Notes: generated from the sequence alone by a model not told the origin. A DNA stretch of 61,348 nt from a virus (IMGVR_UViG_3300033141_003975:1-61348); one strand, 5' to 3'. Shown: positions 3,711 to 53,163, counted from the stretch's first letter. Numbers and translations are program-made.

Positions 3711-4463
3711 CTACTCCGCCAACTTCACGTCTCGACCATCCACTTCCACTCCATCCAAGCCCTGTAAATACGAGGACTTCATCACATCCTTCTGGGCTTG
3801 ACTGATAGCTGTTTTTGACGCACCGGCCTCTTCCAGTGCCCCGACTACAGCCTTCATCAGTTTGACTTTAGTCAGCGGGCCTTGCTCGGCGAGGATGCCA
3901 AGAATCACTTCCTCAACATCCACTTCCACTTCCGCTTCCTTCACCTTCTTGGGCCTCCCTCTCCCGCGCTTGGGCGCCTCCTGTTCCAGCAGGGCTGTGG
4001 GTACGAGGATTGTCCTTCCCTGAGCCCCATCCCCTTTCGGCAACCCAGGTCTCTCGGGTGCCGCCACTTGCTCTACATGGCAGCGAAGGCCAATGAGGAA
4101 TGAGCAATCATCGGTGATATCATCCTCGTTGAATCCGGCTTCTACGAGGTGGGAGAGAAAGAACACGAGGTTGGAGGACTTATTGATACTCCTCCCTTCC
4201 CGTCCCTTGCCCACGGGCACAATCTCTTTCCCGTTGGCGGACGGCTCCCAATCCCCGCGCTTCCCTACCGTGTAGTATTGCTCAAACTCACTTCCTTCCT
4301 CTGCACCTTCGAGCACTTTCATACCCACTCTCAGCGCAGGCACTCCATCCCGCAGGGTTCCCTGGTAGTCGCAGAAGGTGAATTCAGCTTCAGTGAACTC
4401 TACATCCGCGCGCTCCAGCACAGCCCCGCTTACAGCATCACTAGGCTTCAACGATGCTCCCAT
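3711..4463 (-). CDS. possible internal-start product: ssDNA-binding-like protein, 250 aa
   Basis: Inside the helicase ORF, in the same frame, the sequence AAAGGAAAGGAGAAGTATT directly precedes ATG GGA GCA. This is a near-ideal Shine-Dalgarno at good spacing. The product starts MGASLKPSDAV and includes the phage SSB-like region (EYEQ-type strand FEQYYTVGKRGDW, then SNLVFFLSHLVEAGF), the AT-hook-like GRGRPKK and a C-terminal winged-helix-like segment. Either the ORF is read as one fusion and also re-initiated here, or an ancestral stop codon was lost. A stand-alone SSB would be the natural partner of the Sak4-like ATPase. Confidence 0.55.
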   Translation of the reverse strand: MGASLKPSDAVSGAVLERADVEFTEAEFTFCDYQGTLRDGVPALRVGMKVLEGAEEGSEFEQYYTVGKRGDWEPSANGKEIVPVGKGREGRSINKSSNLVFFLSHLVEAGFNEDDITDDCSFLIGLRCHVEQVAAPERPGLPKGDGAQGRTILVPTALLEQEAPKRGRGRPKKVKEAEVEVDVEEVILGILAEQGPLTKVKLMKAVVGALEEAGASKTAISQAQKDVMKSSYLQGLDGVEVDGRDVKLAE

Positions 4464-38574: not shown

Positions 38575-39786
38575 ATGAGCAGCTTCACTTGTGCCGGTTG
38601 TGAGCAAGAGTTTGAAGGTCTCTCCGCAGAAATGTTGGAAAACAGATACGGGGAGTATTTTTATTTCTGCGCAGAGTGCGCAGGCAAGTTCTCTATATGC
38701 TATGAGTGTGGGGAGCCGAATAAAGAAGTTTTTGAAATTGACGACATTGTAATGTGTCGGAATTGCAGATCGGAATACTGTATCAGGTGTTCCGATTGTG
38801 GCACTTGGGTATATTCGGAGACCAGCTACTGTGTGGGAGACAATAGATTGGTCTGTGCGGAGTGTTTTGAGGATTATTATTATTGTGAGGGTTGCGGGGA
38901 GTACGTGCCTGAAGATCACGTATGTCCTTATGTTTCGATCCACAATTATAATGCGAAATTTTGGGATATATTTCCAAATTTCGCAGCTGCGAATAATGGT
39001 CCGTTATTCGGAATGGAATTCGAGCTCGAAGTTAATTCCGAATATAAGGATGAAGCAGCAGTTGACTTCTGTGATCTATTCAAAGTCCCGTGTTTCGCCA
39101 AAGAGGATGGGAGTTTGGGCAGTGGCGGAATTGAAATAAATTTCGCACCTTTATCATTTCAAGAAGTCGAAGAGAAATTACTTTCAGTTTTTGAGTCTGA
39201 AAGTATGAATGAGTGGGTGAGTGATTATTCTGCGACTTCTTGGGATAACGGCAGGTGTGGGATACATATCCACGTATCCCGTGACCAGCTGGATGAGAGT
39301 GACATTACTCTCATCCAAAGCATAATTTTCTCTGAATATAATTATGAATATATTCGGAGATTATCAGGACGCGATAGCGGGTACGGGTATATTCGTAGTG
39401 GACGTCCAACAACTTATTTTGGAGAATTCGCGAACACGTACGGAGACGTGTCGCAAGAGTTTGTTCAGAAATATCTGGATAAATTCTCAAGGGTATTATG
39501 TACTTGGCTGAGTCCGACAGCGATTCATGATAGGTACGAAGGCGTGAACCTGATACCGCGAAATACAATTGAGTTCCGTTTATTTCGTGGTACCTTTTAC
39601 ACGAAAAGGGTCAGAGCGTATTTCCAGTTTTTACGTACTCTGATTGAGTATGTAAAAGGGTTTTCCGGTTTCGGGCGGAGTATTGGCGAATACGCTGATG
39701 CTTTCGAGATAGCTAAAATTGAGAATATCCGAGATAAAGCTAATCAGCTTGGTTTCTCGGAAGTCACAGACTTTATTTCAGAGTGA
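38575..39786 (+). CDS. amidoligase-like enzyme with N-terminal zinc ribbons
   Basis: The 403-residue protein has a Cys-rich N-terminal third with repeated CxxC pairs (CAGC, CAEC, CYEC, CRNC, CSDC, CAEC, CEGC), probably several treble-clef or zinc-ribbon units. The rest matches the putative amidoligase family (glutamine synthetase-like fold): GMEFELEV (about 145), GSGGIEINFAPL (about 181), GIHIHVSR (about 228) and NTIEFRLFRG (about 330). Such enzymes are predicted to form amide or peptide bonds with ATP. The next gene is a class II glutamine amidotransferase, a pairing known from phage amidoligase loci. It may modify peptides, proteins or peptidoglycan precursors. Confidence 0.78.
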   Translation: MSSFTCAGCEQEFEGLSAEMLENRYGEYFYFCAECAGKFSICYECGEPNKEVFEIDDIVMCRNCRSEYCIRCSDCGTWVYSETSYCVGDNRLVCAECFEDYYYCEGCGEYVPEDHVCPYVSIHNYNAKFWDIFPNFAAANNGPLFGMEFELEVNSEYKDEAAVDFCDLFKVPCFAKEDGSLGSGGIEINFAPLSFQEVEEKLLSVFESESMNEWVSDYSATSWDNGRCGIHIHVSRDQLDESDITLIQSIIFSEYNYEYIRRLSGRDSGYGYIRSGRPTTYFGEFANTYGDVSQEFVQKYLDKFSRVLCTWLSPTAIHDRYEGVNLIPRNTIEFRLFRGTFYTKRVRAYFQFLRTLIEYVKGFSGFGRSIGEYADAFEIAKIENIRDKANQLGFSEVTDFISE

Positions 39787-41631: not shown

Positions 41632-41657
41632 TCGCTCGCTCTAAGTCAATCCGCTTG

Positions 41658-41689
41658 CCCCAAAGGTTCTCTCTTTGGGGTTTTCTTTT
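41658..41689 (+). terminator. rightward intrinsic terminator ending block A
   Basis: The stem CCCCAAAG / CTTTGGGG (8 bp, 7-nt loop) is followed by TTTTCTTTT. It lies 27 nt after the last stop codon of block A. Confidence 0.88.
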
Positions 41690-42640
41690 GCCTCAATCTC
41701 GAAGAGTATCCTTATTTGCCCAATAAGCTCGCTTTCGTCAGAAAGCCTCTACTTTCGCTCTCAGTGAGTTTTTTGGCTTCAAGCCAATCTTCCCTACCGC
41801 TCTGATCCAAAGTCTTCGTCACGCGCGTTTATGGCCACTTTCCGGCGAAAGCTTACTTCTTTGATAAAGAAAGTAACCTACGGGATTCAGTAGAGGATAA
41901 GAGTGAGATATTCTCCTTTATATGTATTCTTTAGTAGTAGTGGTTGAGTATCAGTGTATGATTCAATCACTTCCGTTCTTGCTCAATCCCACTTTCGTCC
42001 TTTATTCCCAAGGTGTTTGTCAGTGTGGTGCAAAAGCCGTGATTCAAGCGGGTCTGAAAGCCTGGTTTTATGCTGTATTTCGCATTGATATTCGCTCAAA
42101 GTTAGCTATAGCTACAGACACTAACTCACTGATATTATTAAGCTTAGGTACTGTGCTAGCCACAACTGGTGGAAGTGCATGACTTGCGACATATCTAAAC
42201 TCCGGCAGTAATTCAGGCAGTAATTATTTAGTGAAAGCGGAATATCAGTATGGGTATTTGTTTGAGAAATTGACTTCACACAAACAGAGAATATCCTTTA
42301 TTCTCAATGGTTCTCACACTCTCACTGGTATTCAATAATAGGGAGTTTCAAAGTCAAGTCTATATCCTGAATCCGTCACAGTGTGAGGTAGTTTCTGTTC
42401 CAATTTCTGCTTTAATTTGCTGAAGCCAAGGCTTAATACTATCCTTATATAAGTATTCTATTATATAATAGAGTACTTGAGCTGCTAATTCTTACGGACT
42501 TTACCTGCTGGCGTTAGGTTCTGGAATTGTAAAAAATTGTAAAATTTTCGCTACTCATAGTCTGTCAGCCCCTGATACCCCAACTCCGCAAAGCTACCCT
42601 CACACTTGCATTACTTCAGTTGGTGAAGTGTCAGTCTCTC
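41690..42640. other. AT-rich intergenic region without clear genes
   Basis: About 950 bp with no ORF that has an SD. The longest frame, 41922-42182, lacks a start site and any recognisable motif. Features seen are a tandem near-repeat GGCAGTAATTCA/GGCAGTAATTAT around 42202-42226, and a 28-bp imperfect palindrome at 42451-42478 (outer AAGTA/TACTT, inner TCTATTATATAATAGA). It may hold decayed genes, a non-coding RNA or replication sites. Confidence 0.5.
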
Positions 42641-42675
42641 ACTTTCCGATGCAATAGAATCGGTTGCAGACCCCG

Positions 42676-42780
42676 TGTGCAGTCTCATGAGAAGGTGCAA
42701 TCGGGGTGGTGCAGTGCAACTGCATTGCACACAAAGGGGGGCAAAAGTGCAATTTCGGCGGTGCATTGCACCCCTGCACC
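42676..42780. repeat. cluster of nine GTGCA/TGCAC boxes
   Basis: Six GTGCA (starting 42677, 42695, 42709, 42714, 42747 and 42761) and three TGCAC (42726, 42767 and 42775) lie within 105 bp, several as GTGCAAT. GGTGCATTGCACC (42760-42772) is a perfect palindrome around its centre. Two more copies of ATTGCAC lie at 37579-37596. This is iteron-like and suggests binding sites for an initiator or regulator. Confidence 0.55.
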
Positions 42781-42783
42781 CGA

Positions 42784-42798
42784 GGGGGGGTCCCCCCC
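42784..42798. repeat. G7-T-C7 hairpin
   Basis: Seven G, one T and seven C form a perfect hairpin next to the GTGCA cluster. A second palindrome, TTTCGCGCGAAA, follows at 42843-42854. No T-run follows, so it does not look like an intrinsic terminator. Confidence 0.6.
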
Positions 42799-42876
42799 AT
42801 CCCCAGGGGGTCTATCCGAAACCGGGTCGCCCAGCAAACTTTTTTCGCGCGAAACGTTGTGGCCCTCCAATCAATT

Positions 42877-42893
42877 TGTAACATTTTGTTACA
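42877..42893. promoter_or_regulatory. palindromic operator candidate TGTAAC-N5-GTTACA
   Basis: It has the same 6-bp arms as the site at 8678-8694, here with centre ATTTT. Further half-sites (GTTACA at 42900-42905, and ACATTTTGTTACA at 42913-42925) follow downstream. It lies about 80 bp upstream of the block B promoter. Confidence 0.45.
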
Positions 42894-42962
42894 AAACCCG
42901 TTACACTTCGCCACATTTTGTTACATTACCAATCTGGTCAAGATTTATCTTCAAAAAAATTC

Positions 42963-43002
42963 GTCAATAGCTATTGACAAGGGTGTTGCCGTGAGTTAAA
43001 CT
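42963..43002 (+). promoter_or_regulatory. block B promoter with overlapping palindrome
   Basis: TTGACA (42974-42979), a 17-nt spacer and TAAACT (42997-43002) form a good sigma-70-type promoter. The perfect 16-bp palindrome GTCAATAGCTATTGAC (42963-42978) covers the -35; its core CAATAGCTATTG also occurs at 37296-37307. The first gene starts about 55 nt after the predicted start point. Confidence 0.7.
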
Positions 43003-43063
43003 CCGAATGTAGGTGAAGGGAGAACCCAAACAAATTACCCTCCCACCAAAGGAGACAGCTATT

Positions 43064-43636
43064 ATGGAGCACATAATCACCCGCGACAGTAAGTTCAAAT
43101 GGGGTCAGTGGCTGGAGTTTGAGAGTGAGCACTCCAGGTACTCCCTCGGGTATCACCAAATCCTCTGGAGGGGCGAGCTCCTTCATTGTGGCTGGAACTG
43201 GGGAGATCTGAGCGAGGAAGAGACGAAGAAGGCAATCCTCGAAGCCCGAGAGGCTTACGGGGATATCGTGAAGCCCTACACGCGCGAGTGTATGGAGACT
43301 GACAAATACGCACCCGTGAAGCTCCCCGACCATCGCGGCGAGGAGAATTATATTGACTGCTACTTCCTTCCTGTAGGAGCAGTCAAAGAGATTGTAATTT
43401 CCAATTATGCTCGCTGCCACCTTGACCGGTCCAGCGCGACAGCTCTCTGGGCCTCCCACCCTCCTTACATCCTGGATATAAGTGATGATTGTTTTCGTGG
43501 TCATGGTCGTATGACTGCGAGGGTGCAGATTCTGGAAGAGCAAGCATTGTACAACTATGTACAGGATTCAGCTGGGTGTATTGAGAGGCGGGCGCTGTAT
43601 TTGGCAATCCCTTCCTGGGTGAATCATAATGTATAG
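43064..43636 (+). CDS. block B paralogue family A protein, 190 aa
   Basis: It starts MEHIITRDSKFKWGQWLEFE and contains GYHQILWRGELLHCG. Its C-terminal half (ATALWASHPPYILDI, ARVQILEEQALYNYVQDSAG, RRALYLAIP) is shared with the protein at 46673 (TTLWAGCPPFILKV, VRMSPKQALYAYVREASG, RYQMLLTLP) and more weakly with that at 50719. No known domain is recognised. It is the first gene after the block B promoter, with AAAGGAGACAGCTATT before ATG. Repeated copies suggest selection for divergent versions of one function. Confidence 0.6.
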   Translation: MEHIITRDSKFKWGQWLEFESEHSRYSLGYHQILWRGELLHCGWNWGDLSEEETKKAILEAREAYGDIVKPYTRECMETDKYAPVKLPDHRGEENYIDCYFLPVGAVKEIVISNYARCHLDRSSATALWASHPPYILDISDDCFRGHGRMTARVQILEEQALYNYVQDSAGCIERRALYLAIPSWVNHNV

Positions 43637-43829
43637 ACGATACGATATCTACAAAAAACCCAATGGGCTAATTCTTACTCACCCGCGCCCTGACGATGAC
43701 TGGAGACTCGACGTGAGGGAAGTCCGAGCCTTCGAGTCGAAATATGATTGCTCATGGGTCTGTGTGATAGATGCCCCGACAGCTGCTGAGGCTGTTTGGA
43801 AATACAGACAGATAGGAGAACCACAATGA
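43629..43829 (+). CDS. small hypothetical protein, 66 aa (family C)
   Basis: It starts MYRRYDIYKKPNGLILTHPR and continues PDDDWRLDVREV. The N terminus is like that of the gene at 47762 (MYDVFKEGNEFVAYPRPDDE), so the two are probable paralogues. The C-terminal half (CVIDAPTAAEAVWKYRQIG) resembles small strand-helix domains. It overlaps both neighbours. Confidence 0.5.
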   Translation: MYRRYDIYKKPNGLILTHPRPDDDWRLDVREVRAFESKYDCSWVCVIDAPTAAEAVWKYRQIGEPQ

Positions 43830-44485
43830 ACATCAAGGTATGGACGGTAATAAGCCCAGAGGACGACTTGGCCACAACGAAACTGTGGCACAAAGTTGAG
43901 CAGAACGGTTGTGTCGTAGAGGATCAAATCCCTAGAACTCAAATGCGCTACTCGCCTCGGATATACGAGTGCGAGTACACAGCCGGTTCGGGCCTTCTTC
44001 CGATTTTATTTAGGGATCTCATTAGGGACAAAATGTCCCTTGATCCCTATGAGAGGATTCTCGGAATTCGCATGTATTCCGATTTGAGGAAGATCCTCTA
44101 TTTGGAACAAGAAGAGACGGTGCGGGTTTATGGCCCAGTCCGTGATATAGATCCGGCGGGGGCACAAAACCTGGCAGAAGATCCCACCTTTCCAAATGGG
44201 ATCTATATTCACGGTAAGGAATCCTCTGGGGATCGACCCTTCGATCTCCCCCATACGGTAGTTGGCCTGGACTATGACATAGTTCCAGACGCCGACTACA
44301 CCGTCGTACCTCTCCTCTCCCCTTGGTTTTATCGCCGATATGGCGAATGGACTCTCATGAAGAAAGAGGAAATTACCTCTCTTGTAGCACTCAATAACGA
44401 ACCCGAGTGCCATAGGGATTTCCAGTGGTATTTGCGAACTACACTGATGCCCGTGAGTGCCTGTAGAGATCTTCAGACCACCTAA
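43826..44485 (+). CDS. block B paralogue family B protein, copy 1 (219 aa)
   Basis: It is a tandem paralogue of the next gene. Shared stretches are LWHKVEQNGCVVEDQ, RIYECEYT, RDLIRDKMSLDPYERILGIR, MYSDLRKILYLEQEE, GIYIHG and VPLLSPWFYRRYGEWTLMKK. No known family is recognised. The ATG has AGGAGAACCACA upstream. The pair indicates a duplication followed by strong divergence, with the length differing at the C terminus. Confidence 0.6.
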   Translation: MNIKVWTVISPEDDLATTKLWHKVEQNGCVVEDQIPRTQMRYSPRIYECEYTAGSGLLPILFRDLIRDKMSLDPYERILGIRMYSDLRKILYLEQEETVRVYGPVRDIDPAGAQNLAEDPTFPNGIYIHGKESSGDRPFDLPHTVVGLDYDIVPDADYTVVPLLSPWFYRRYGEWTLMKKEEITSLVALNNEPECHRDFQWYLRTTLMPVSACRDLQTT

Positions 44486-44504
44486 TCTGAGAAAGGAAAT
44501 GATG

Positions 44505-45392
44505 ATGAAAATCCAAGTAGAGACTTATGTTGAACCTAAGAGTAGCGAGTATCGGTACTGGGTGTGTGCCACTGATATGTGGCACAAAATCACACGGGAT
44601 GGGGAAGTCGTGGTGGACCAAACTGTCGAGACCGGAAATAGATTTCTCGACGTGACAAAACGCAAGTTCCCGCCTCGCATCTACGAATGCGAGTGTGAGG
44701 AACAGGATCTGCTCAAAGTTCTTTTCAAAGATTTAATCGGCAGTAAAGAAGATCTTGATGACCCGTATGAGCGAATCATCGGGATCAGGATGTATTCCGA
44801 GTTAAGGAAACTCCTTAACCTGGAACATCAGGAGGTAGTCAAGATCTTCGGATACTACGACTCGTGGTGCCTGAACGATTGGGTTCCTCCACATTCCCCA
44901 CCCGGGATTTATATTCATTCCAGTTGTCCTTCCCGGGTCCGGTATTTCGATCTTGTCCATGCGATCAAAGGATTACGGTACGAGATCGTACCCGACCCTT
45001 TGTACGACGGGGAAGTCACAATCGCCCCGTTACTTGCCCCATGGTTCCAATATAAGAAATGCAGGTGGGTATTACTAACCCAGAACGAGATCGCGAAGCT
45101 TGTGGCCCGCAACTACGGGCCGGACTATCCGACGAAAAGAATCCTCTGGAAACTCAGGGCGATCATGACGCCGGAGTCAGTCTACTCGGAGATTCTGCGA
45201 GGCCCTGGGGCTATTAAAGAAGAGTTACGTCGGATCAATTCCGACATCGAACTCTATGAAGCTGATAATGGTCAGCTCTATCTAGAGGAAGGGCCCTATT
45301 TCAAAGACCTGAGTCCGAATGCCATCGACAATCTGCGCCGGTTGTCGCCTGGCGCAGAAAATAAAGAGATCAGGGAAGCCTTGCTTTCTTGA
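44505..45392 (+). CDS. block B paralogue family B protein, copy 2 (295 aa)
   Basis: Tandem duplicate of the previous gene: MWHKITRDGEVVVDQ, RIYECECE, DDPYERIIGIRMYSELRKLL, GIYIHS and APLLAPWFQYKKCRWVLLTQ. It carries about 75 extra C-terminal residues rich in Glu and Leu (KEELRRINSDIELYEADNG). ATG 44505 is preferred because AAAGGA lies 7 nt upstream; ATG 44502 is also possible. Function unknown. Confidence 0.6.
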   Translation: MKIQVETYVEPKSSEYRYWVCATDMWHKITRDGEVVVDQTVETGNRFLDVTKRKFPPRIYECECEEQDLLKVLFKDLIGSKEDLDDPYERIIGIRMYSELRKLLNLEHQEVVKIFGYYDSWCLNDWVPPHSPPGIYIHSSCPSRVRYFDLVHAIKGLRYEIVPDPLYDGEVTIAPLLAPWFQYKKCRWVLLTQNEIAKLVARNYGPDYPTKRILWKLRAIMTPESVYSEILRGPGAIKEELRRINSDIELYEADNGQLYLEEGPYFKDLSPNAIDNLRRLSPGAENKEIREALLS

Positions 45393-45403
45393 GAATAATC
45401 CAA

Positions 45404-45435
45404 CGGCGAGCCGGAGCCGAACAATCCGGTAGGAG
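45404..45435 (+). ncRNA. leader pseudoknot, copy 1
   Basis: Proposed H-type pseudoknot. Stem 1 is CGGC (45404-45407) with GCCG (45416-45419); stem 2 is CCGGA (45411-45415) with TCCGG (45425-45429). Loop 1 is GAG, loop 2 is zero, loop 3 is AACAA. The SD AGGAG begins 2 nt after stem 2. It has the same layout as copies at 46035 and 51156, with compensatory changes, and probably regulates translation of the gene at 45441. Confidence 0.6.
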
Positions 45436-45440
45436 ACATT

Positions 45441-45986
45441 ATGAGTTACTATCGAGCCACAGCAAGCGAAGACGGAGTAATCTTCGAGTACGCCCTTCCA
45501 GATGGAAGAGGCTGGAGAAAGAGTGATGTCCTCGCTGATGTCACTCTTGAAAAACTCGAAAATTTCATCGAGGGCCGCCTCCCAAACAGAGGACTTCCAG
45601 AACCACTAATCCGCCAATCCGCAGACTGGTGGATTCGCATCGAAGGTACAAGATGCCGAATCTACCTCCAGCAAGAGGATGCTCGCGGCGGTCGGGCATA
45701 CTACGCCAGACCGTCAGAGATCTCATCTGAGGTCGTCAAAGATATTCTTCGGGCTATTGCAAACGATATTGATCTCGACTTCCAAGATTCGGAAGTCAAG
45801 GAAGACGATGTCGCCTGTTTCAGTATAGGGGATAAAGCGGAATTGATCGCGGACCTCATCCGCGAGGAGACCCGTGGACTTTACGAGGTTTCAACTGACA
45901 GAGGCCTCGTAAAGATCACTCCAGCGGAAAATCATGAAGAGTTCTTCGCTGGATTTATCGCCGGAGTGCGACGAATGCTCCAATAG
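45441..45986 (+). CDS. block B family D protein with leader pseudoknot, 181 aa
   Basis: It starts MSYYRATASEDGVIFEYALP. The C-terminal region (ADLIREETRGLYEVSTDRG, VKITPAENHEEFFAGFIAGV) is shared with the gene at 51192 (AKMIRKEFNSLIEVTADSG, DYFLGFICGAAVAL). Both genes are preceded by the same pseudoknot-like leader, which suggests a co-duplicated regulatory unit. The fold is unknown, probably alpha/beta. SD AGGAGACATT precedes ATG. Confidence 0.6.
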   Translation: MSYYRATASEDGVIFEYALPDGRGWRKSDVLADVTLEKLENFIEGRLPNRGLPEPLIRQSADWWIRIEGTRCRIYLQQEDARGGRAYYARPSEISSEVVKDILRAIANDIDLDFQDSEVKEDDVACFSIGDKAELIADLIREETRGLYEVSTDRGLVKITPAENHEEFFAGFIAGVRRMLQ

Positions 45987-46000
45987 GTTCCCATCACTTC

Positions 46001-46022
46001 CCTGAGCCGCATGATGCTCAGG
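46001..46022 (+). other. hairpin in the leader of the next gene
   Basis: CCTGAGC / GCTCAGG, a 7-bp stem with an 8-nt loop, lies directly after the stop of the family D gene and upstream of pseudoknot copy 2. No T-run follows. It may be a processing or stabilising hairpin. Confidence 0.45.
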
Positions 46023-46034
46023 CAGTGAATCCAA

Positions 46035-46065
46035 AGGCAGACCGAAGCCTGAATTCGGCAAGGAA
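46035..46065 (+). ncRNA. leader pseudoknot, copy 2
   Basis: Stem 1 is AGGC (46035-46038) with GCCT (46047-46050); stem 2 is CCGAA (46042-46046) with TTCGG (46054-46058). Loop 1 is AGA, loop 2 zero, loop 3 GAA. The SD AAGGAA follows at once. Compared with copy 1, stem 1 changes C:G to A:U and stem 2 changes G:C to A:U, both pairs being kept. Confidence 0.6.
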
Positions 46066-46070
46066 ATAAA

Positions 46071-46673
46071 ATGGACATGGTAGCCCATTTCAGAAAGAAA
46101 CTGGAGCAGGAAGTCCTGCTCCGTGTATACTCAAGCCCCGTGTCGCCAAAGGGTGATATCATTTGGGGTACTGCTTCATATCCCAAATACTTCAACGATG
46201 ATATTGCTATTGTTTCCAAAGGCGTGTGTAAGGGCTATGTGACACCCATAGCACGCAGCGGCCATCCTGCTGATGGCGACTTTATCTTGCATGGGGAGAT
46301 TTTTGGACCAGAGGAAAATGTCTCATTCCTCGATGCTTACTTGGCCATTGAGAGACAGGTCCTCTGCAAGGAAAACATCGAGGCGGCTCGCAACGACTTC
46401 CTTACACGGAATTACTACAAAGAGGATTTGGATGATTTGGTCTATAACCTTGTAGATGAGAGTGACCTCGACATTGAGATCGTCTGGGGGAATGAAAAAA
46501 CAACACAGCTTCAATCCCTCTTGCGCCATGCAGCACAATATGGGTTCTACTGGGGGCCCCAGACCACTGCGCAAGTGCGGAAGGATGGGAAGTTGTTTTT
46601 TGGCGGCTTCAAGACAAGAAGCCCCGGGCAGTTATTCAGCCTCATTGTGATGGCTATCCTGGAGGGAGAGTGA
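46071..46673 (+). CDS. block B family F protein, 200 aa
   Basis: It starts MDMVAHFRKKLEQEVLLRVY. The C-terminal part (LVDESDLDIEIVWGNEKTTQ, then RSPGQLFSLIVMAILEGE) resembles the gene at 48642 (IVRDVDIEIHWDTGD, then NPQEMLMLIIVSMLATQ), so these are probable paralogues of different length. No known domain is recognised. It is preceded by leader pseudoknot copy 2 and overlaps the next gene by TGATG. Confidence 0.58.
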   Translation: MDMVAHFRKKLEQEVLLRVYSSPVSPKGDIIWGTASYPKYFNDDIAIVSKGVCKGYVTPIARSGHPADGDFILHGEIFGPEENVSFLDAYLAIERQVLCKENIEAARNDFLTRNYYKEDLDDLVYNLVDESDLDIEIVWGNEKTTQLQSLLRHAAQYGFYWGPQTTAQVRKDGKLFFGGFKTRSPGQLFSLIVMAILEGE

Positions 46674-47467
46674 TGGCTACCACAACCCGCATCAAAAAAG
46701 ATGCTTCTTGGCTTTTCTTTGAAAGCAACGGGGCCAAACACCCGCTCGGGTACTATCAATTATTGTGCCAAAGTGGATTATTCTACACCCCCAAATCCCT
46801 CAGCTCCCTTCCCGAGGAGGAGCTTGTTCAGGTCCTGGACAGCATCGACTTCTCTCGCCTCACCCCACCCGACGTGAATGAAGCCTTGGCTACCGGCGAC
46901 GCCTTGATAGGGAAGGCGGCGTTTCATCTTGACTTAACAAAGAGCGAAAATGCCGTCTACACCATCTGCCATCCTGGGGACGTCGTCGAGATCCCCCTGG
47001 CCCAACACCCGGGCATGACGACGACCCTCTGGGCAGGCTGCCCCCCATTCATTCTGAAAGTGAAGAATGTGAGTTCTCCTAGCTGCTGGAATGACACAGC
47101 AATAGTCAGGATGTCTCCCAAACAGGCCCTCTATGCTTATGTTCGCGAGGCATCTGGCATTTGCAAACGATATCAAATGCTCCTCACTCTGCCTCAAAGC
47201 GAAGAATGCACACTCGTGTGTGGGTTTGAGAATGGGCGCTCGTGGGCATTCGCGCAGGGTTGGAGTGAAGGCTACACCGACGGTGGGGGCCGTCTTCACT
47301 ACGGGGAGATGCCTTCGCAGAGTGCACAATGCTTCCCTTGTGCTTACACGCAAGCAAACAGACAGATCCTTGACGAGCTATGGGCAATAGAGCCATTCGA
47401 CATCAGCCCTTCCCCATGCCGTCAAGAAGGAGTGCAGTTCGTGCACTTCTATAATCGAATACCTTGA
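46673..47467 (+). CDS. block B paralogue family A protein, 264 aa
   Basis: It starts MATTTRIKKDASWLFFESNG and contains HPLGYYQLLCQSGLF, parallel to GYHQILWRGEL in the gene at 43064. The middle region (PGDVVEIPLAQHPG, TTLWAGCPPFILKV, SPKQALYAYVREASG) is the family A core. A C-terminal extension of about 85 residues (SWAFAQGWSEGYTDGGG, QANRQILDELWAI) is unique to this copy. GGAGGGAGAGTG precedes ATG. Confidence 0.6.
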   Translation: MATTTRIKKDASWLFFESNGAKHPLGYYQLLCQSGLFYTPKSLSSLPEEELVQVLDSIDFSRLTPPDVNEALATGDALIGKAAFHLDLTKSENAVYTICHPGDVVEIPLAQHPGMTTTLWAGCPPFILKVKNVSSPSCWNDTAIVRMSPKQALYAYVREASGICKRYQMLLTLPQSEECTLVCGFENGRSWAFAQGWSEGYTDGGGRLHYGEMPSQSAQCFPCAYTQANRQILDELWAIEPFDISPSPCRQEGVQFVHFYNRIP

Positions 47468-47479
47468 AAGGAGTTAGCC

Positions 47480-47752
47480 ATGAATTACGCACTGAGACAC
47501 AACAGTCATTGGCAAGGCGAGGGCCTCGGCCCCGTCATCGACGTGTTTGCGACAAGGCGGGAAGCTGAAGCCCTCGAAGACTTCATGTCAACGTGTTCTT
47601 TCTGCTTCCCTGGTCGGTCATCCGGTTACTCAGCAGGTGTTTGCTACAAAGTCAAACCCACCCGTCGTCCAGTTACAGCCGAGGTCGACCCCACGGATGA
47701 AATCTCACTACAAGACTACATGGACGCTCTTTGCGAGCGCGAATATGCTTAG
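47480..47752 (+). CDS. hypothetical protein, 90 aa
   Basis: It starts MNYALRHNSHWQGEGLGPVI, with a helix TRREAEALEDFMSTCSF and an acidic end (DPTDEISLQDYMDALCERE). No family is recognised. SD AAAGGAG lies 7 nt before ATG and the next gene follows after 9 nt, so it is clearly part of the operon. Confidence 0.55.
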   Translation: MNYALRHNSHWQGEGLGPVIDVFATRREAEALEDFMSTCSFCFPGRSSGYSAGVCYKVKPTRRPVTAEVDPTDEISLQDYMDALCEREYA

Positions 47753-47761
47753 GAGGAAATC

Positions 47762-48199
47762 ATGTACGACGTATTCAAGGAAGGTAACGAGTTTGTGGCT
47801 TATCCTCGCCCCGATGATGAACCGAGATTGACAGCAAGATGGCGCGATCCTGATTTGTGGATGTTGGATCGCAGCAAATTCCCGAGGAATCCCGAGGAAT
47901 TGGAAGCCATGCTTGTTGCGGAAGACATCTTCTCTTCTGCAATGGACCCCAGTGACATTCCGAAGATCACCGATTCCTGGGATGACAATCCCGACGGGTA
48001 TGTTTCGATCCCGTTTGAGTGCAATGGCGGCTTCATTCCTGTTGCAGTGCCCTACTGGTACTGCCTCTCACCTTTGGACGCAGCCCAAGAAGTAGGATAT
48101 TACGACTCGACCACAAGTAGGGAGTACTGTGGCGAGTTTGAGGCTTTCGATGAAGAGGAAGCAATTGAAGCGGCAAAGAAATTGGAGGGAGTGTCATGA
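47762..48199 (+). CDS. hypothetical acidic protein, 145 aa (family C)
   Basis: The start MYDVFKEGNEFVAYPRPDDE parallels the 66-residue protein at 43629. It continues with an acidic middle (ILSS-like region AEDIFSSAMDPSDIPKITDS) and ends with FDEEEAIEAAKKLEG, a strand-helix unit. No known function. AGGAGGAAATC precedes ATG; it overlaps the next gene by ATGA. Confidence 0.55.
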   Translation: MYDVFKEGNEFVAYPRPDDEPRLTARWRDPDLWMLDRSKFPRNPEELEAMLVAEDIFSSAMDPSDIPKITDSWDDNPDGYVSIPFECNGGFIPVAVPYWYCLSPLDAAQEVGYYDSTTSREYCGEFEAFDEEEAIEAAKKLEGVS

Positions 48200-48627
48200 G
48201 AGAGTTCAAATTGGTTGGTGATTGTCTCGCAGAATGGGGCGGAAGCGGGCGGAATACCGGAGAGGCTACTATTATTGCAGGCCCATCTGGAGAGAGGAAG
48301 CCTGCGCGCTGGATCAATCGCATGGGACACTTGTCCAATGGAGAACATGCTTTGATCCCTGTTGAACCTGGTGACCTCGTAATTCATACAAATCACCATT
48401 GCAGGGACCACATCCTGTCAGTGTCAGTCATAGAGAAGATGACGCTCAGAGGTACTGCTGAGGCTCTTGAGGTATTCACTGGGCGCGCGATGCTCGACGA
48501 CGACAGACTGGTGGTGGAGCCCCATCCCGACTCCTGCCAACTCCCTGACACCTGGTATGAGGCCTGTATCGCTGTACTGAGAAAGGCTGAGACATACCAC
48601 TGTCGGGAAGCAGTGTATGTTGCATAG
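48196..48627 (+). CDS. hypothetical protein, 143 aa
   Basis: It starts MREFKLVGDCLAEWGGSGRN and contains PVEPGDLVIHTNHHCRDH, which echoes the PGD element of family A, and a C-terminal helix DTWYEACIAVLRKAETYH. No family is recognised. The His/Cys-rich TNHHCRDH segment could bind metal. GGAGGGAGTGTC precedes ATG. Confidence 0.5.
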   Translation: MREFKLVGDCLAEWGGSGRNTGEATIIAGPSGERKPARWINRMGHLSNGEHALIPVEPGDLVIHTNHHCRDHILSVSVIEKMTLRGTAEALEVFTGRAMLDDDRLVVEPHPDSCQLPDTWYEACIAVLRKAETYHCREAVYVA

Positions 48628-48641
48628 AAAAGGAGGAAGCG

Positions 48642-48932
48642 ATGCTTGACACAACAAACAATAATTCCTCTTTGGATTTGGTTGACATAGTCCGAGATGT
48701 TGATATCGAAATCCATTGGGATACAGGAGACCCCTCTCCACTCCCCGACATTATCTCCTACATCGAGCTCTACAAGGAGATGAGTTGGGATAACATCCAG
48801 TGGGCGGAAGTATGGGTTAAGGGCACTCGCCCATTGGATTTGCGAGCTGAAAACCCGCAAGAGATGCTCATGCTCATCATCGTGAGTATGCTTGCCACAC
48901 AAGGAGGCCCATCGTGTTCACGTAATTCATGA
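48642..48932 (+). CDS. block B family F protein, short copy (96 aa)
   Basis: It starts MLDTTNNNSSLDLVDIVRDV, then DIEIHWDTGD, and ends near MLIIVSMLATQGGPS. It corresponds to the C-terminal 80-90 residues of the protein at 46071, so that segment behaves as an independent domain. AAAAGGAGGAAGCG gives a strong start. The stop overlaps the start of the membrane-anchored HicB-like gene. Confidence 0.5.
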   Translation: MLDTTNNNSSLDLVDIVRDVDIEIHWDTGDPSPLPDIISYIELYKEMSWDNIQWAEVWVKGTRPLDLRAENPQEMLMLIIVSMLATQGGPSCSRNS

Positions 48933-49249
48933 CAGTTTCTTTCCTGGCAGGATTTGGTCTTGGCGTTCTGCTCATTGTTGGCCTTACACGTATACGCTTG
49001 CCTGGGCGTAATCCCGAACTGGAGCGTTACTTGGGATTGAGGTACAGAATTGTTATTGAACCTTTCTCTGAGGAAGAGGGTGGTGGGTACGAGGCATTCA
49101 TCCCGACATTGGGCAAGTCAACGTGTGTCGCAGTCGGAGATACAGAGGAAGAGGCCCTCGACAATCTCCTGAGCGTGAAAAGAGATGTTATGGAGTCTTG
49201 GTACAAGGAGGGGCTTCCAATTCCATTACCGAAAGGAGAAAGGGAATGA
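48929..49249 (+). CDS. membrane-anchored HicB-like protein, 106 aa
   Basis: Residues 4-22 form one transmembrane helix (SFLAGFGLGVLLIVGLTRI). The rest matches the HicB fold: YRIVIEPFSEEEGGGYEAFI, then VAVGDTEEEALDNLLSVKRD and GLPIPLP. HicB proteins are antitoxins that neutralise HicA RNases. There is no HicA-like gene nearby and no C-terminal DNA-binding domain, so this may be an orphan decoy antitoxin or a membrane-tethered adaptor. The SD is weak; coupling to the upstream gene is likely. Confidence 0.65.
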   Translation: MTVSFLAGFGLGVLLIVGLTRIRLPGRNPELERYLGLRYRIVIEPFSEEEGGGYEAFIPTLGKSTCVAVGDTEEEALDNLLSVKRDVMESWYKEGLPIPLPKGERE

Positions 49250-49638
49250 AAACCAAACGACTCACACTACTCGGCGATTCACTCCTATATGAAGCCTTTG
49301 CCAGTGAATATACAGCAATTGGTGAAGGTTGGCACGTTATGACAAAAGTTCGTTTAGGCAAACGCATCAGAGCGAAGAAGCTTATACAAATCTTGGAAGA
49401 ATCTATTGTCGCGACTAAAGATGAAGAGATTGTGGATGTGGACCGCTACCGAATGCTTATCTTGAAGGACCACGGGGGCTGCCATATTGATCTCCAATGC
49501 GCAGGCAGTCTTTTTTACGAATCCTACGATCCTTGCAAGAAACTGAAGAGATCAATAGCTCTTGCGTTCATAGAGGCCCTTGCGCGCAAAGGTCTACTTG
49601 AATTCCATAAGGAGAATGAGAATGAAATCTGTATGTAG
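49246..49638 (+). CDS. block B family E protein, 130 aa
   Basis: It starts MKTKRLTLLGDSLLYEAFAS, then IGEGWHVMTKVRLGKR. This N-terminal pattern (LGD.LL.E....GEGW) also begins the gene at 51192, so the two share an N-terminal domain with different C-terminal parts. No family is recognised. Its start overlaps the HicB-like stop and its end overlaps the clamp start. Confidence 0.52.
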   Translation: MKTKRLTLLGDSLLYEAFASEYTAIGEGWHVMTKVRLGKRIRAKKLIQILEESIVATKDEEIVDVDRYRMLILKDHGGCHIDLQCAGSLFYESYDPCKKLKRSIALAFIEALARKGLLEFHKENENEICM

Positions 49639-50722
49639 ACGAAACGATCTGTTACAAACAGTCCGACGACTGCGCTCAATCAGCAGCTGGGTTACAGTCT
49701 CGTCCAACCTCGATTCCGAGTCCATTTCTTTGACAGCGCAAGACAATAGCCGTGTGCTGACCGCTAAACTCTCTACCAACGGTGTCAGCAAATGCCTTCT
49801 GCTTCTGGACTTAGAGGTTCTGCAAAAGAAACTTGCAGCCTTGACCGTACCCGAGGTCGCCCTATGTTGCGAGTTAGGCACCCTGATTCTGAGAGCGAGC
49901 AAGTTCCAATTTCAACTAAACACTTGCCAGACTCTCAACCCCCCGAGTACACTATTCACCACCCCCTCCCACACAAGCGACTTCCCCTTACACAAATTCC
50001 GCCTCCTCCTTGCTTCCATACTTCCTTATACCTCAACCGAGAAGGGGCAGTATGAACTTGATGCACTTGCGTATAGACGCGGTGTCTGGTACTCAACAGA
50101 CGGAAGGCGTGTTGGGGTATACCACTTCCCATTATCCCACGTCCCCGACGAATTCACTCTACCCGACTCTTCCTACCTCGACATAATCCGACGCAGTCTA
50201 CCCCGAGGTAAGAAAGGGACAGGGACTATTTCTTTCGACAAGGAGTATAGTTGTGAGATAGCCTGGGGGAAGTGGAGGTTCCAGACCCGTTTACTGGCAG
50301 GACCCTTCCCGCCATACCAAAACTTAATTCCCGACAACCAAAATAGTATTGTCGTGAATAAGGATGAGATCTGCGCAGGACTGCTGGATGCACAAAACCG
50401 CGTGGACCCCAGCACGGAGTATATAGGCTTGGACATAGACAGCGGATCAGAGATTGCCTTTGTAGTTCCTGAAGGCGACATAATCTCAAAGACACAAGCG
50501 CTGCAACTGTATGAGCCGCGCGAGAGGGTTATGTGGCTGAACAGGGCCCTACTCCTCCAAGGCATCAAACCCGTAACCTCCGAGACGGTCGTGCTCAAAA
50601 TAGGGCCTTGCTTGAAACCCTGTTACGGAGCCCCCGACTATGGTCCTATTATGATCCACGGCGAGGACCCCTGTTACCAATACGTCCTCATGCCCAAAAT
50701 CCCGCCTGGAGAACTATCATGA
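49622..50722 (+). CDS. dnaN: DnaN-like sliding clamp
   Basis: The 366-residue product has the length of a bacterial beta clamp, though the sequence is divergent. Clamp-like elements are ELDALAYRRGVWYSTDGRRV (domain 2), RLLAGPFPPYQNLIPDNQNS (the RxxxGxFPxYxxxIP signature of domain 2-3), NKDEICAGLLDAQNRVDP (domain 3 helix) and the ending PCYQYVLMPKIPP, close to the yVvMPM end of clamps. It would tether the phage polymerase to DNA. ATG 49622 follows AAGGAG at 7 nt. Its place among small accessory genes, not the replication operon, is unusual. Confidence 0.78.
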   Translation: MKSVCRRNDLLQTVRRLRSISSWVTVSSNLDSESISLTAQDNSRVLTAKLSTNGVSKCLLLLDLEVLQKKLAALTVPEVALCCELGTLILRASKFQFQLNTCQTLNPPSTLFTTPSHTSDFPLHKFRLLLASILPYTSTEKGQYELDALAYRRGVWYSTDGRRVGVYHFPLSHVPDEFTLPDSSYLDIIRRSLPRGKKGTGTISFDKEYSCEIAWGKWRFQTRLLAGPFPPYQNLIPDNQNSIVVNKDEICAGLLDAQNRVDPSTEYIGLDIDSGSEIAFVVPEGDIISKTQALQLYEPRERVMWLNRALLLQGIKPVTSETVVLKIGPCLKPCYGAPDYGPIMIHGEDPCYQYVLMPKIPPGELS

Positions 50723-51135
50723 GATTTGAACAAGACAAGGCATCGTATTGGGCATTCCTCCGTGAGATATCATGCTACTCCGATATCGCTTGCGAGGTGT
50801 TGAAAAACCACTGGTCGAATTCCTTTATTGGCATTGGTTTTTACCCGTGGGCATCTCCGTTCAGACACCTCCCTGCGCGAGTGCCTGACACTGAGGACGA
50901 ATGGGGTGAGTATTTCGTCAAGTTCCCTGGAGACATCGTGCCCATCCCCCTCGACGCTTCCTGGGCAGGAGCGCCTCCGAAAGTAACGGAGGTGGATGAG
51001 GAGCACGGGTTTGCAAAGGTCGAGATGCTCCCGAGCCAAGCGCTCAATTGCCACTACCCCCCTTTACTTCATGAGATATTGTGGTCAACAGACTGCTTGT
51101 ATCTAGCCAGGAGGATTTTCATCACGCTTCCTTGA
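50719..51135 (+). CDS. block B family A-like protein, 138 aa
   Basis: It starts MRFEQDKASYWAFLREISCY. The middle (KFPGDIVPIPLDASWAGAPP, then VEMLPSQALNCHYPPLLHEI, YLARRIFITLP) follows the family A order of PGD, PP, AL and a final hydrophobic-LP. The similarity is weaker than between the copies at 43064 and 46673. GGAGAACTATC precedes ATG, which overlaps the clamp stop. Confidence 0.52.
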   Translation: MRFEQDKASYWAFLREISCYSDIACEVLKNHWSNSFIGIGFYPWASPFRHLPARVPDTEDEWGEYFVKFPGDIVPIPLDASWAGAPPKVTEVDEEHGFAKVEMLPSQALNCHYPPLLHEILWSTDCLYLARRIFITLP

Positions 51136-51155
51136 GGCTCGATATCAGAAATTAA

Positions 51156-51185
51156 AGGCCCGCTGAAGCCTTGATTCAGTAGGAG
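51156..51185 (+). ncRNA. leader pseudoknot, copy 3
   Basis: Stem 1 is AGGC (51156-51159) with GCCT (51168-51171), extendable to 5 bp; stem 2 is CTGAA (51163-51167) with TTCAG (51175-51179). Loop 1 is CCG, loop 2 zero, loop 3 TGA. The SD AGGAG follows 2 nt later. Against copy 2, stem 2 changes C:G to U:A with pairing kept. Confidence 0.6.
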
Positions 51186-51191
51186 ACAACC

Positions 51192-51737
51192 ATGCACAGA
51201 ATCACGAAGCTCGGAGATCGTTTGTTATTGGAGAAATACCGAAACTCATCCCTTGGAGAGGGTTGGTTCATCGTCAAGGAACTAACCCCTGCCACCCCAG
51301 TCACAGAGTTCCTGGCCCCCGCCGTGAACCCTTTGACACACAGTGCCTCGGTCCAGCTCGAAGGTTACAAACTCATCTTCACGTCGCACAAATCAGTACA
51401 CCTGCTTCGACCAGGCACTGACACTCGCGGCTCCTCCCGCTGGGAACCCACAGAGACAATCCCCTTTGACAAACTCCTCGGTCTACTTCGCTGGACTGAC
51501 GAGAATGGGGTTATTGACTTTGCCGAAGTCGATATTTGTGATGAATCCATTCACACAGATGTTGGCAAACACGCAGAGGATGTCGCAAAGATGATCCGCA
51601 AGGAATTTAATTCTTTGATTGAGGTAACAGCAGACAGTGGTATTGTGCAAATATCCCAGACCTTTGGCAAGCGGGACTACTTCCTTGGGTTTATCTGTGG
51701 TGCCGCTGTAGCATTGGAACAGAAAGGAGAAGTGTGA
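51192..51737 (+). CDS. block B mosaic family E/D protein with leader pseudoknot, 181 aa
   Basis: The N terminus (MHRITKLGDRLLLEKYRNSS, LGEGWFIVKEL) is family E; the C terminus (AKMIRKEFNSLIEVTADSGI, FLGFICGAAVALEQKG) is family D. It thus joins parts found in separate proteins at 49246 and 45441. It is preceded by leader pseudoknot copy 3, like the other family D gene. Function unknown. AGGAGACAACC precedes ATG. Confidence 0.58.
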   Translation: MHRITKLGDRLLLEKYRNSSLGEGWFIVKELTPATPVTEFLAPAVNPLTHSASVQLEGYKLIFTSHKSVHLLRPGTDTRGSSRWEPTETIPFDKLLGLLRWTDENGVIDFAEVDICDESIHTDVGKHAEDVAKMIRKEFNSLIEVTADSGIVQISQTFGKRDYFLGFICGAAVALEQKGEV

Positions 51738-52105
51738 TGTCCGTGTTCGTGAATTGCTCAAACCATATCATTGACACGTGGTCAGCCGAGCAAAGGGAAG
51801 CAGCTCATGCTTTGGGTTGTGAGCATTTGGTGGACCGCCCGTTCCCGAATGTAGATCCCGAGGCTGATGAGGAAACAATAGGTGAATTAGCCTGGGGGCT
51901 CGCCCAATCCCTCAGATACATCCTCGACAGCGACCCGCCTGGTGTAGTCATGATCCAAGGCGAATCAACCCTTGTGTTTCGCACGGTATCCATACTCAAG
52001 AGTTTGGGTATTGTGTGTGTGGCAGCAACAACAAAGCGCGAAGTCGAAGAGCGTGATGGGAAGAAAATCTCAATCTTTCGTTTTGTTCAACTTCGCCAAT
52101 ACTGA
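51737..52105 (+). CDS. Csx20-like protein (putative cyclic-oligonucleotide-binding)
   Basis: The 122-residue protein starts MSVFVNCSNHIIDTWSAEQR and contains PPGVVMIQGESTLVFRTVSI, GIVCVAATTKREVEERDG and the ending FRFVQLRQY. This series (NH..T..Q, LVQGE/D, A/YATTxR, a basic aromatic end) is that of a small Rossmann-like family annotated as CRISPR-associated Csx20 in type III loci and proposed to act on cyclic oligoadenylates. In a phage it could be a counter-defence protein that binds or degrades such signals. The match is from memory of the family; a generic Rossmann protein is the alternative. AAGGAG lies 7 nt before ATG. Confidence 0.5.
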   Translation: MSVFVNCSNHIIDTWSAEQREAAHALGCEHLVDRPFPNVDPEADEETIGELAWGLAQSLRYILDSDPPGVVMIQGESTLVFRTVSILKSLGIVCVAATTKREVEERDGKKISIFRFVQLRQY

Positions 52106-52116
52106 GGAGATGGAAT

Positions 52117-52473
52117 ATGATAAATGTGCCAGAGGATCTTGAAGACTACATCGAGGATGCGCATGAAGCTCTGTTGCAGTACTTCAATTACGACGTCCTC
52201 GCTTTCATGCTTGACGATCTGACCCGACTCGCAGATTACTGTCTCGGCCAGTCTCAAGCGCGGGCTTGGGAAGACGAAGCCGCGCGTGCTATTGCGAAAG
52301 ACTTACTCCGTAGACTTACAAGCGATGGGCGCTTTACTTACGAAACGGACAGCGTATTGGCAATCGACCTCGCTTGTTTCTTTCGCGTAACACTCCAGGC
52401 CGTCTCCGCCGTAATCGCAACAATGGCAATCTCGGGCGAAACAATACAGGTGGTGTCCAAACGAGATATATAG
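52117..52473 (+). CDS. hypothetical helical protein, 118 aa
   Basis: It starts MINVPEDLEDYIEDAHEALL. The protein is almost entirely helical and acidic, with SQARAWEDEAARAIAKDLLR and an Ala/Val-rich C-terminal helix (FFRVTLQAVSAVIATMAI) that could be a membrane segment or a buried helix. No family is recognised. GAGGAGATGGAAT precedes ATG. Confidence 0.52.
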   Translation: MINVPEDLEDYIEDAHEALLQYFNYDVLAFMLDDLTRLADYCLGQSQARAWEDEAARAIAKDLLRRLTSDGRFTYETDSVLAIDLACFFRVTLQAVSAVIATMAISGETIQVVSKRDI

Positions 52474-52488
52474 AAAGGATGAGTCACT

Positions 52489-53163
52489 ATGCCTCAAGTA
52501 TTATACGTAATGGGTAAGTCGGAAGGAGAGCTCCAGTATAAGGAGAAGCTTCCAATACGGAAACGGAGTCAGGAATGGACCCTTACCACCCACCCTGACA
52601 CGGTTTTTGTCGGAGACAGCGGGCGCGTGATATTCCGCCGCGATCTCCCGTTCTGGTCCACCCCTAATGGAGAAGCTCTACTAAAACGAGCCCCTCACCC
52701 TTGGATGGAGGAGGAGATGTTGGAGGCTTGGGATAAACTCGAACTCGCCCTCTGCACCGCCTCCCCCGTCTCCGGTTACTACACCCTCCCGTATGGCAAA
52801 GACACTGCCATAGCCCCAGTCTCTCCCAACCGCCCTACCCCCTTCTACCCTCTAGGCAAAGTGGAGCTTTGTGTCTGGATCACGCGAATGCAGCCTACGC
52901 ATATAGGGGTGTGGAACGGGAAGTTGGGTGCCTTGCTGTGGACGGATGAGGACGGGCTCGTAGGTGCGACGCTCAGCTTCAAACCCAACCCCAGCTTCTA
53001 TGCATGGCTAGTGCCGGATGAGTGCACTTGGTGGGATATTGTTCTTGAGAAAGGGAAGTTCAGGGCGGTACCTGCCATTGGACGGGATGATTCCTTGGGC
53101 TGTGTCCATGCTGATTCAGCCAGAGCAGCTGTGGAACAATTCCTTGAGGATGAGTCAGAGTAG
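52489..53163 (+). CDS. hypothetical protein, 224 aa
   Basis: The last rightward gene. It starts MPQVLYVMGKSEGELQYKEK and contains TVFVGDSGRVIFRRDLPFWS, VELCVWITRMQPTHIGVWNG and the C-terminal unit HADSARAAVEQFLEDE. The PLGKVELCVWI/HIGVWNGKLGALLW region vaguely resembles the family A core. No known function. Its last 9 bases overlap the convergent methyltransferase gene, with no terminator between them. Confidence 0.5.
   Translation: MPQVLYVMGKSEGELQYKEKLPIRKRSQEWTLTTHPDTVFVGDSGRVIFRRDLPFWSTPNGEALLKRAPHPWMEEEMLEAWDKLELALCTASPVSGYYTLPYGKDTAIAPVSPNRPTPFYPLGKVELCVWITRMQPTHIGVWNGKLGALLWTDEDGLVGATLSFKPNPSFYAWLVPDECTWWDIVLEKGKFRAVPAIGRDDSLGCVHADSARAAVEQFLEDESE

Follow-up and report, generated by a model that had tools for sequence, protein, structure and literature searches.

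A candidate family of minimal H-type pseudoknots immediately upstream of Shine-Dalgarno sequences in phage mRNAs

The viral contig IMGVR_UViG_3300033141_003975, analyzed here over its whole length of 61,348 nucleotides (nt; hereafter the window), is a linear, probably incomplete virus sequence from IMG/VR that encodes a phrog_9 terminase, a portal, a capsid, a DNA polymerase and helicases. Its plus strand carries an operon at about 43064-53163, in which three short predicted H-type RNA pseudoknots lie immediately 5' of the Shine-Dalgarno (SD) sequences of three genes. Only three gaps of this operon exceed 20 nt (48, 84 and 56 nt), and each of them holds one of the pseudoknots; the remaining junctions measure -17 to +16 nt, counting the small open reading frame (ORF) at 43629-43829.

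Pseudoknot 1 (45404-45429, plus strand) is formed by stem 1 (45404-45407/45416-45419), loop 1 (45408-45410), stem 2 (45411-45415/45425-45429) and loop 3 (45420-45424); it reads CGGC-GAG-CCGGA-GCCG-AACAA-TCCGG-T-AGGAG, and its 3' end lies 1 nt before AGGAG at 45431-45435, the SD of a plus-strand ORF of 181 amino acids (aa) with no assigned function at 45441-45986. Pseudoknot 2 (46035-46058, plus strand) has stem 1 at 46035-46038/46047-46050, loop 1 at 46039-46041, stem 2 at 46042-46046/46054-46058 and loop 3 at 46051-46053. Its letters are AGGC-AGA-CCGAA-GCCT-GAA-TTCGG-C-AAGGA, where AAGGA, again 1 nt downstream at 46060-46064, serves an ORF of 200 aa, also with no assigned function, on the same strand (46071-46673). 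Pseudoknot 3 (51156-51179, plus strand), with stem 1 at 51156-51159/51168-51171, loop 1 at 51160-51162, stem 2 at 51163-51167/51175-51179 and loop 3 at 51172-51174, reads AGGC-CCG-CTGAA-GCCT-TGA-TTCAG-T-AGGAG; the AGGAG, after the same 1-nt spacing (51181-51185), belongs to a second plus-strand ORF of 181 aa without assigned function (51192-51737).

All three window copies thus share the H-type order S1(4)-L1(3)-S2(5)-S1'(4)-L3(3-5)-S2'(5), with an inter-stem loop of zero and a single nucleotide before AGGAG or AAGGA, and the ATG follows 11-12 nt after the end of the pseudoknot. Three base pairs vary among the copies, and every change is compensated (C-G to A-T in stem 1; in stem 2, C-G to T-A as well as G-C to A-T); the loops are not conserved (loop 1 GAG, AGA and CCG; loop 3 AACAA, GAA and TGA). 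Because the SD lies in neither stem of any window copy, the pseudoknot fold does not hide it. The distance from the upstream stop codon is 11, 20 or 48 nt, and an A/T-rich stretch stands directly 5' of each. An earlier note on this DNA, made from the sequence alone, had described the three sites; its coordinates, letters and order of elements were confirmed when the sequence was re-read, as were its statements that every change between copies keeps the pairing in both stems (none of them breaks a pair) and that the sites occupy the three longer gaps of this gene block. The distance it gave from stem 2 to the SD, 1-2 nt, was measured as 1 nt at all three sites.

The genes behind the sites indicate what the element follows. 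The genes downstream of sites 1 and 3 encode distant paralogues (29% identity over 103 aa; about 25-29%), so pseudoknots 1 and 3 may stem from a single duplication. Site 2 precedes a gene for a protein of another family, not paralogous to either of them, and a further paralogue of the first pair, at 49246-49638, overlaps its upstream neighbor and has no pseudoknot. Therefore, the element tracks uncoupled starts and not one protein family.

The window contains three matches to the pattern common to the three sites, as against none in 100 shuffles, and when the 42-nt leader of each pseudoknot was dinucleotide-shuffled 1000 times, the native pseudoknot outscored every shuffle under a simple stacking-plus-penalty energy. 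A scan by geometry only, which required an abutting SD with its ATG and allowed 4 bp in stem 1, 4-5 bp in stem 2, 3-4 nt in loop 1 and 3-5 nt in loop 3, returned exactly the three known sites on the plus strand and none on the minus strand; the same scan on whole-window shuffles gave 0-4 unrelated pseudoknots. Under looser scoring, one SD-adjacent pseudoknot of such quality occurs at 1-2% of random positions and is, singly, not rare. The statistical strength lies in three matching pseudoknots at gene starts, not in any single one.

The same fold was found outside the window. A broad pattern (GGC-N3-CYGRA-GCC-N4-6-TYCRG-SD) matched 12 viral contigs in IMG/VR, along with 119 cellular matches. 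After pairing, start codon and reading frames had been checked, two of the 12 viral contigs were kept, IMGVR_UViG_3300028590_000093 (hereafter the second contig) and IMGVR_UViG_3300033148_005663; the other viral matches, and those of the 119 cellular matches that were examined, were inside open frames or unpaired. A scan blind to the stem-2 sequence, run over the whole 22.4 kb of the second contig, located four forward copies, at 3885 (CGGC-GGGT-CGGGG-GCCG-AGCAA-TCCCG), 9589 (CGGC-GAA-CGGA-GCCG-AGCAA-TCCG), 10374 (CGGC-GAA-CCCCG-GCCG-AGCAA-CGGGG) and 12546 (CGGC-GCA-CCGGA-GCCG-AGCAA-TCCGG). All are flush with an SD, with the ATG 11-15 nt further on; they share the same stem 1 (CGGC/GCCG) and the same loop 3 (AGCAA), whereas each has a stem 2 of its own that still pairs. 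The geometry scan of this contig yielded only these four, all forward, against 0-3 in shuffles. It is worth noting that the searches were adaptive and that the second contig was picked from the 12, so the independent check comes from its three extra copies, which were obtained without the stem-2 constraint. Between window site 1 and the copy at 12546, 23 of 26 positions are identical. In the DNA compared, the two phages share just a weak capsid match, and no shared regulator was detectable between them. The earlier note had held that a lack of homologues in related phages would speak against its reading; copies do exist in other viral contigs, though no close relatives of the window phage were found.

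Other searches gave nothing further. A narrow version of the motif pattern had no matches in IMG/VR; with flanking A's added there was one, rejected since it lies in a coding frame. Searching phage records with the pseudoknot sequences returned matches inside genes or lacking an SD, which we judged to be chance. The pattern CGGC..GCCGARCAA..GGAG matched 15 times in 396 genomes of one phylum, against about 27 for a reversed control, and these matches are therefore background. In a metagenome-assembled genome of Verrucomicrobia we also noted a repeated GGCGGGCTGAAGCCCGCGCTCCGG element, with three copies on two contigs (806-972; 1186-1215), which is probably an unrelated intergenic repeat.

In the second contig each copy belongs to a cassette consisting of a palindrome, AATCTGATATCRRATT, a TTGAC-17-GATA promoter-like sequence, a short leader with a possible 5' hairpin, the pseudoknot and the SD. 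An operator of the AATCTGATATCRRATT type is absent from the window, where the copies are intercistronic. The window copies stand only at uncoupled junctions and those of the second contig follow a repeated promoter, so both phages would use the element at de novo starts; what the two have in common is its placement relative to the SD, at starts that have to be initiated independently. The cassette occurs at 3809, 9516, 10299 and 12472 on the plus strand and resembles a phage repressor operator-promoter placed at four genes, with two more palindromes on the other strand, at 9947 and 18614 in reverse-complement coordinates.

For covariation we aligned eight copies, three from the window, four from the second contig and one from IMGVR_UViG_3300033148_005663. 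Across this set, 97.2% of the cells are paired and five of the nine pairs have changed on both sides (one in stem 1, four in stem 2), which no shuffle reproduced (0 of 500); the covariation score was 0.413, against 0.161 in shuffles (0 of 500). Sliding the partner strands by one base lowered the pairing to about 46%, and when whole 3' strands were permuted among the copies the observed pairing was reached in 13 of 100,000 permutations. The copies accordingly display interleaved helices with compensatory changes in each, as the H-type class demands. The covariation signal is strong but not final, as the copies are few and those of the second contig are mutually related.

We regard it as very likely indeed that the RNA pseudoknot is real. 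What the sequences offer is a predicted pseudoknot with compensatory variation, set flush with the SD, used at starts without an overlapping upstream gene and recurring in an unrelated phage. Because three genes of the window phage and four in an unrelated virus carry the same fold, it would represent a genuine, uncatalogued RNA control element, and we propose that the copies belong to a family, likewise uncatalogued, of minimal H-type RNA pseudoknots located in phage mRNAs directly 5' of the SD. In line with the earlier note, which could name no class for the three sites, Rfam gave no match above the gathering threshold in the window, the second contig or IMGVR_UViG_3300033148_005663, and nothing relevant over the sites at E<=10.

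How might such an element act? An effect on translation initiation is probable, and we infer that it would be exerted in cis. The RNA directly 5' of the SD faces the mRNA exit side and the platform of the 30S ribosomal subunit, the working site of ribosomal protein S1. The folded pseudoknot would leave the SD single-stranded and present a compact structure just upstream, and this structure would meet the 30S platform and S1. Docking there would raise or fix the independent initiation of genes that are barred from translational coupling. S1 is known to bind H-type pseudoknots, among them ligands from systematic evolution of ligands by exponential enrichment (SELEX), transfer-messenger RNA (tmRNA), preQ1 and rpsO (PMC7708055). 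Binding of the 30S and S1 to the tisB mRNA requires a pseudoknot, and compensatory stem-2 mutants restore function (PMC7708055). We prefer a docking or enhancer element because the SD is left open, the structure lies at S1's side of the 30S, S1 binds pseudoknots and tisB provides a precedent. Since the two phages have only the weak capsid match in common and no detectable regulator, a host factor (30S or S1) fits the shared fold better than a phage protein does. Consequently, our best explanation overall, put forward tentatively and at somewhat less than even confidence, is a family of minimal H-type pseudoknots 5' of the SD with a cis effect on initiation through predicted 30S/S1 docking. The mode taken by itself, docking as opposed to a regulator's operator or a stability element, may be correct, and we advance it as a possibility.

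Several observations weigh against this explanation. At site 2 the nearest-neighbor estimate, in which the pseudoknot energy model is crude, gives -6.7 kcal/mol for the pseudoknot and -8.0 kcal/mol for a nested fold, and in the GC-rich leaders of the second contig nested folds likewise have lower estimated energy than the pseudoknot alone. Six of the nine stem pairs are invariant among the three window copies, a degree of conservation beyond what structure alone would require. Multiple copies occur in two contigs only, and IMGVR_UViG_3300033148_005663 adds one probable intergenic copy whose stem 1 has 3 bp, the outer pair being absent.

The main rival to docking is a translational operator, in which a phage or host protein recognizes the pseudoknot and blocks or licenses the 30S at the adjoining SD, giving a post-transcriptional regulon. 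We consider it rather unlikely. It stays alive because stem sequence is conserved in the window: all three copies share the core GGC/GCC plus CYGRA/TYCRG, yet identity between the proteins encoded after sites 1 and 3 is only ~25-29%, which suggests sequence-specific recognition. It also has a precedent in the gene 32 pseudoknot of T4 and RB69, through which gp32 acts on its own mRNA (PMC535899). However, we have no candidate regulator and none common to both phages, and an operator of the T4 type also requires UUAAA repeats and a long unstructured stretch before the start, which are absent at the window sites. The phage-protein binding site suggested in the earlier note is possible, with 30S or S1 the better fit. 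Its broader proposal of a translational riboregulator has fared well in so far as real pseudoknots tied to starts are concerned, being borne out by the recurrence in an unrelated phage, the abutment on the SD and the compensatory stem-2 changes.

Next comes a stabilizer, processing end or insulator of the mRNA, which would guard the downstream cistron from 5' decay or keep upstream sequence off the SD and affect initiation only indirectly. The window sites lie within 11-48 nt of the upstream stop codon with A/T-rich sequence just 5' of each pseudoknot, and the copies of the second contig are near an inferred mRNA 5' end, as this role would have it; it leaves unexplained why stem 2 abuts the SD in every copy and why the AGCAA loop of the second contig is fixed, and we find it improbable.

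A ligand-responsive or two-state switch, with the pseudoknot and a competing upstream hairpin as its two states and a small molecule, temperature or a protein tipping the balance between them, appears more doubtful still. Some nested alternatives, at site 2 and in the leaders of the second contig, overlap stem strands and could form such a switch (UCAGGC/GCCUGA at site 2; GGGGUUC/GAACCCC at 10374), and since the estimated energies favor the competing hairpins in the second contig, a two-state element is possible there; loop 3 is AGCAA in all four of its copies. Against this, the hairpins vary among the copies, with none at sites 1 and 3, the loops are variable in the window, no metabolic gene lies downstream, and the preQ1 and SAM classes were unmatched by Rfam. 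The small riboswitch raised in the earlier note gains little from the window, where loops are unconserved, no shared expression platform was found and the downstream genes have no assigned function, and a metabolite riboswitch there is unlikely.

That the two interleaved inverted repeats form a DNA-level element (an operator or a recombination or replication site) is very improbable: the repeats look identical at the DNA level, and sites 1 and 2, similar in sequence, flank one gene, but all eight copies keep an exact SD register on the coding strand, the stem-2 changes are compensatory, and the second contig has its DNA operator elsewhere, in a distinct palindrome that precedes the promoter. 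Chance likeness or trivial duplication without function is hardly credible, for even if a lone SD-adjacent pseudoknot is not rare and sites 1 and 3 precede paralogues, the shuffle tests and the independent recurrence with covariation in the second contig strongly disfavor it.

Among known systems, the T4/RB69 gene 32 operator resembles the window element in being a small H-type pseudoknot (~28 nt) 5' of a translation start in a phage mRNA. It serves one gene, its pseudoknot lies well upstream, and the start is preceded by UUAAA repeats and a long stretch with less structure (PMC535899); in contrast, the window element is found at several genes, flush with the SD, with the ATG 11-12 nt on and no UUAAA/UAAA repeats. 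The S1-binding pseudoknots (rpsO, the tisB standby site, SELEX ligands) are likewise H-type, near a translation start and subject to the same compensatory stem-2 logic, and the tisB pseudoknot is described with a stem 2 of 5 nt and a loop 3 of 3 nt (PMC7708055). The tisB pseudoknot sits in a standby site ~100 nt upstream of a sequestered ribosome-binding site, whereas the window SD is open and adjacent, and the likeness to S1 ligands is one of fold. In placement, the nearest known phenomenon is that of SAS/ESAS in Cluster K and EF actinophages; these and the Cluster EG inverted repeats are short repeats at many non-structural gene starts whose function is not established (PMC3203893, PMC7302621). 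SAS differs in being a linear 13-mer, GGGATAGGAGCCC, preceded by an imperfect inverted repeat; copies with <=2 mismatches numbered none on the window plus strand and one in the second contig, away from the pseudoknots, and the Cluster K phage CrimD had no pseudoknot of the window kind at its SAS sites. The STAXI motif (RF01728) comprises pseudoknot units repeated near phage-type genes (PMC2864571), in tandem and with UUCG tetraloops, unlike the single copies of the window and contigs; RF01728 matched none of the three contigs at E<=10. Finally, the preQ1 class I riboswitch is also a very small H-type pseudoknot controlling expression, with an A-rich loop 3. In its translational types, which depend on conserved pocket bases, the SD is occluded to a variable extent (PMC11625349); the window sites do not match this class.

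If our explanation is true, the copies constitute a new RNA family, present several times per phage and compact enough for a portable translation element. They would provide a concrete case for how folded RNA just upstream of an SD affects 30S recruitment, and the structural idea could be applied to unexplained start-associated repeats in other phage genomes. A further-reaching hypothesis, somewhat unlikely as it stands, is that this is a widespread, sparsely sampled class of phage start RNA, a ~24-27 nt pseudoknot abutting the SD. It would recruit the host 30S or switch back and forth with a hairpin upstream, giving unrelated phages a common module with which to set the initiation of selected genes.

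Two other roles for the window sites were considered and rejected. The distance from the upstream stop is inconstant (11, 20 and 48 nt), which does not suit a frameshift or readthrough signal, and an intrinsic terminator on either strand lacks a proper T run; weak minus-strand matches face no minus-strand genes. Directly upstream of pseudoknot 2, at 45994-46028 on the plus strand, is a strong hairpin, TCACT-CCTGAGC/GCTCAGG-AGTGA, which has no T run and is thus not an intrinsic terminator. It is interrupted and has 12 bp, and its 3' arm could alternatively pair with the stem-1 3' strand of pseudoknot 2.

The proteins of the operon are orphans except for one sliding-clamp-like protein (phrog_947), a divergent DNA polymerase sliding clamp encoded at 49622-50722, in the middle of the orphan operon. 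Relatives of the proteins of this gene block were found neither in IMG/VR or INPHARED nor in any collection searched, and the terminase had relatives only at about 40% identity or less. The AlphaFold model of the 51192-51737 protein was poor (predicted local distance difference test score, pLDDT, 56) and gave no usable fold match. The region 43064-51737 contains several ancient paralogous families (43064/46673/50719; 43826/44505; 45441/51192/49246; weakly 46071/48642). Elsewhere in the window, an amidoligase-like protein (PF12224) with a cysteine-rich N-terminal part is encoded at 38575-39786, at the head of the plus-strand block. The operon is preceded by 1.4 kb without convincing genes (41632-43063), a candidate regulatory or replication region, with G and C runs near 42780-42810 and a good sigma-70-like promoter at 42974-43002.

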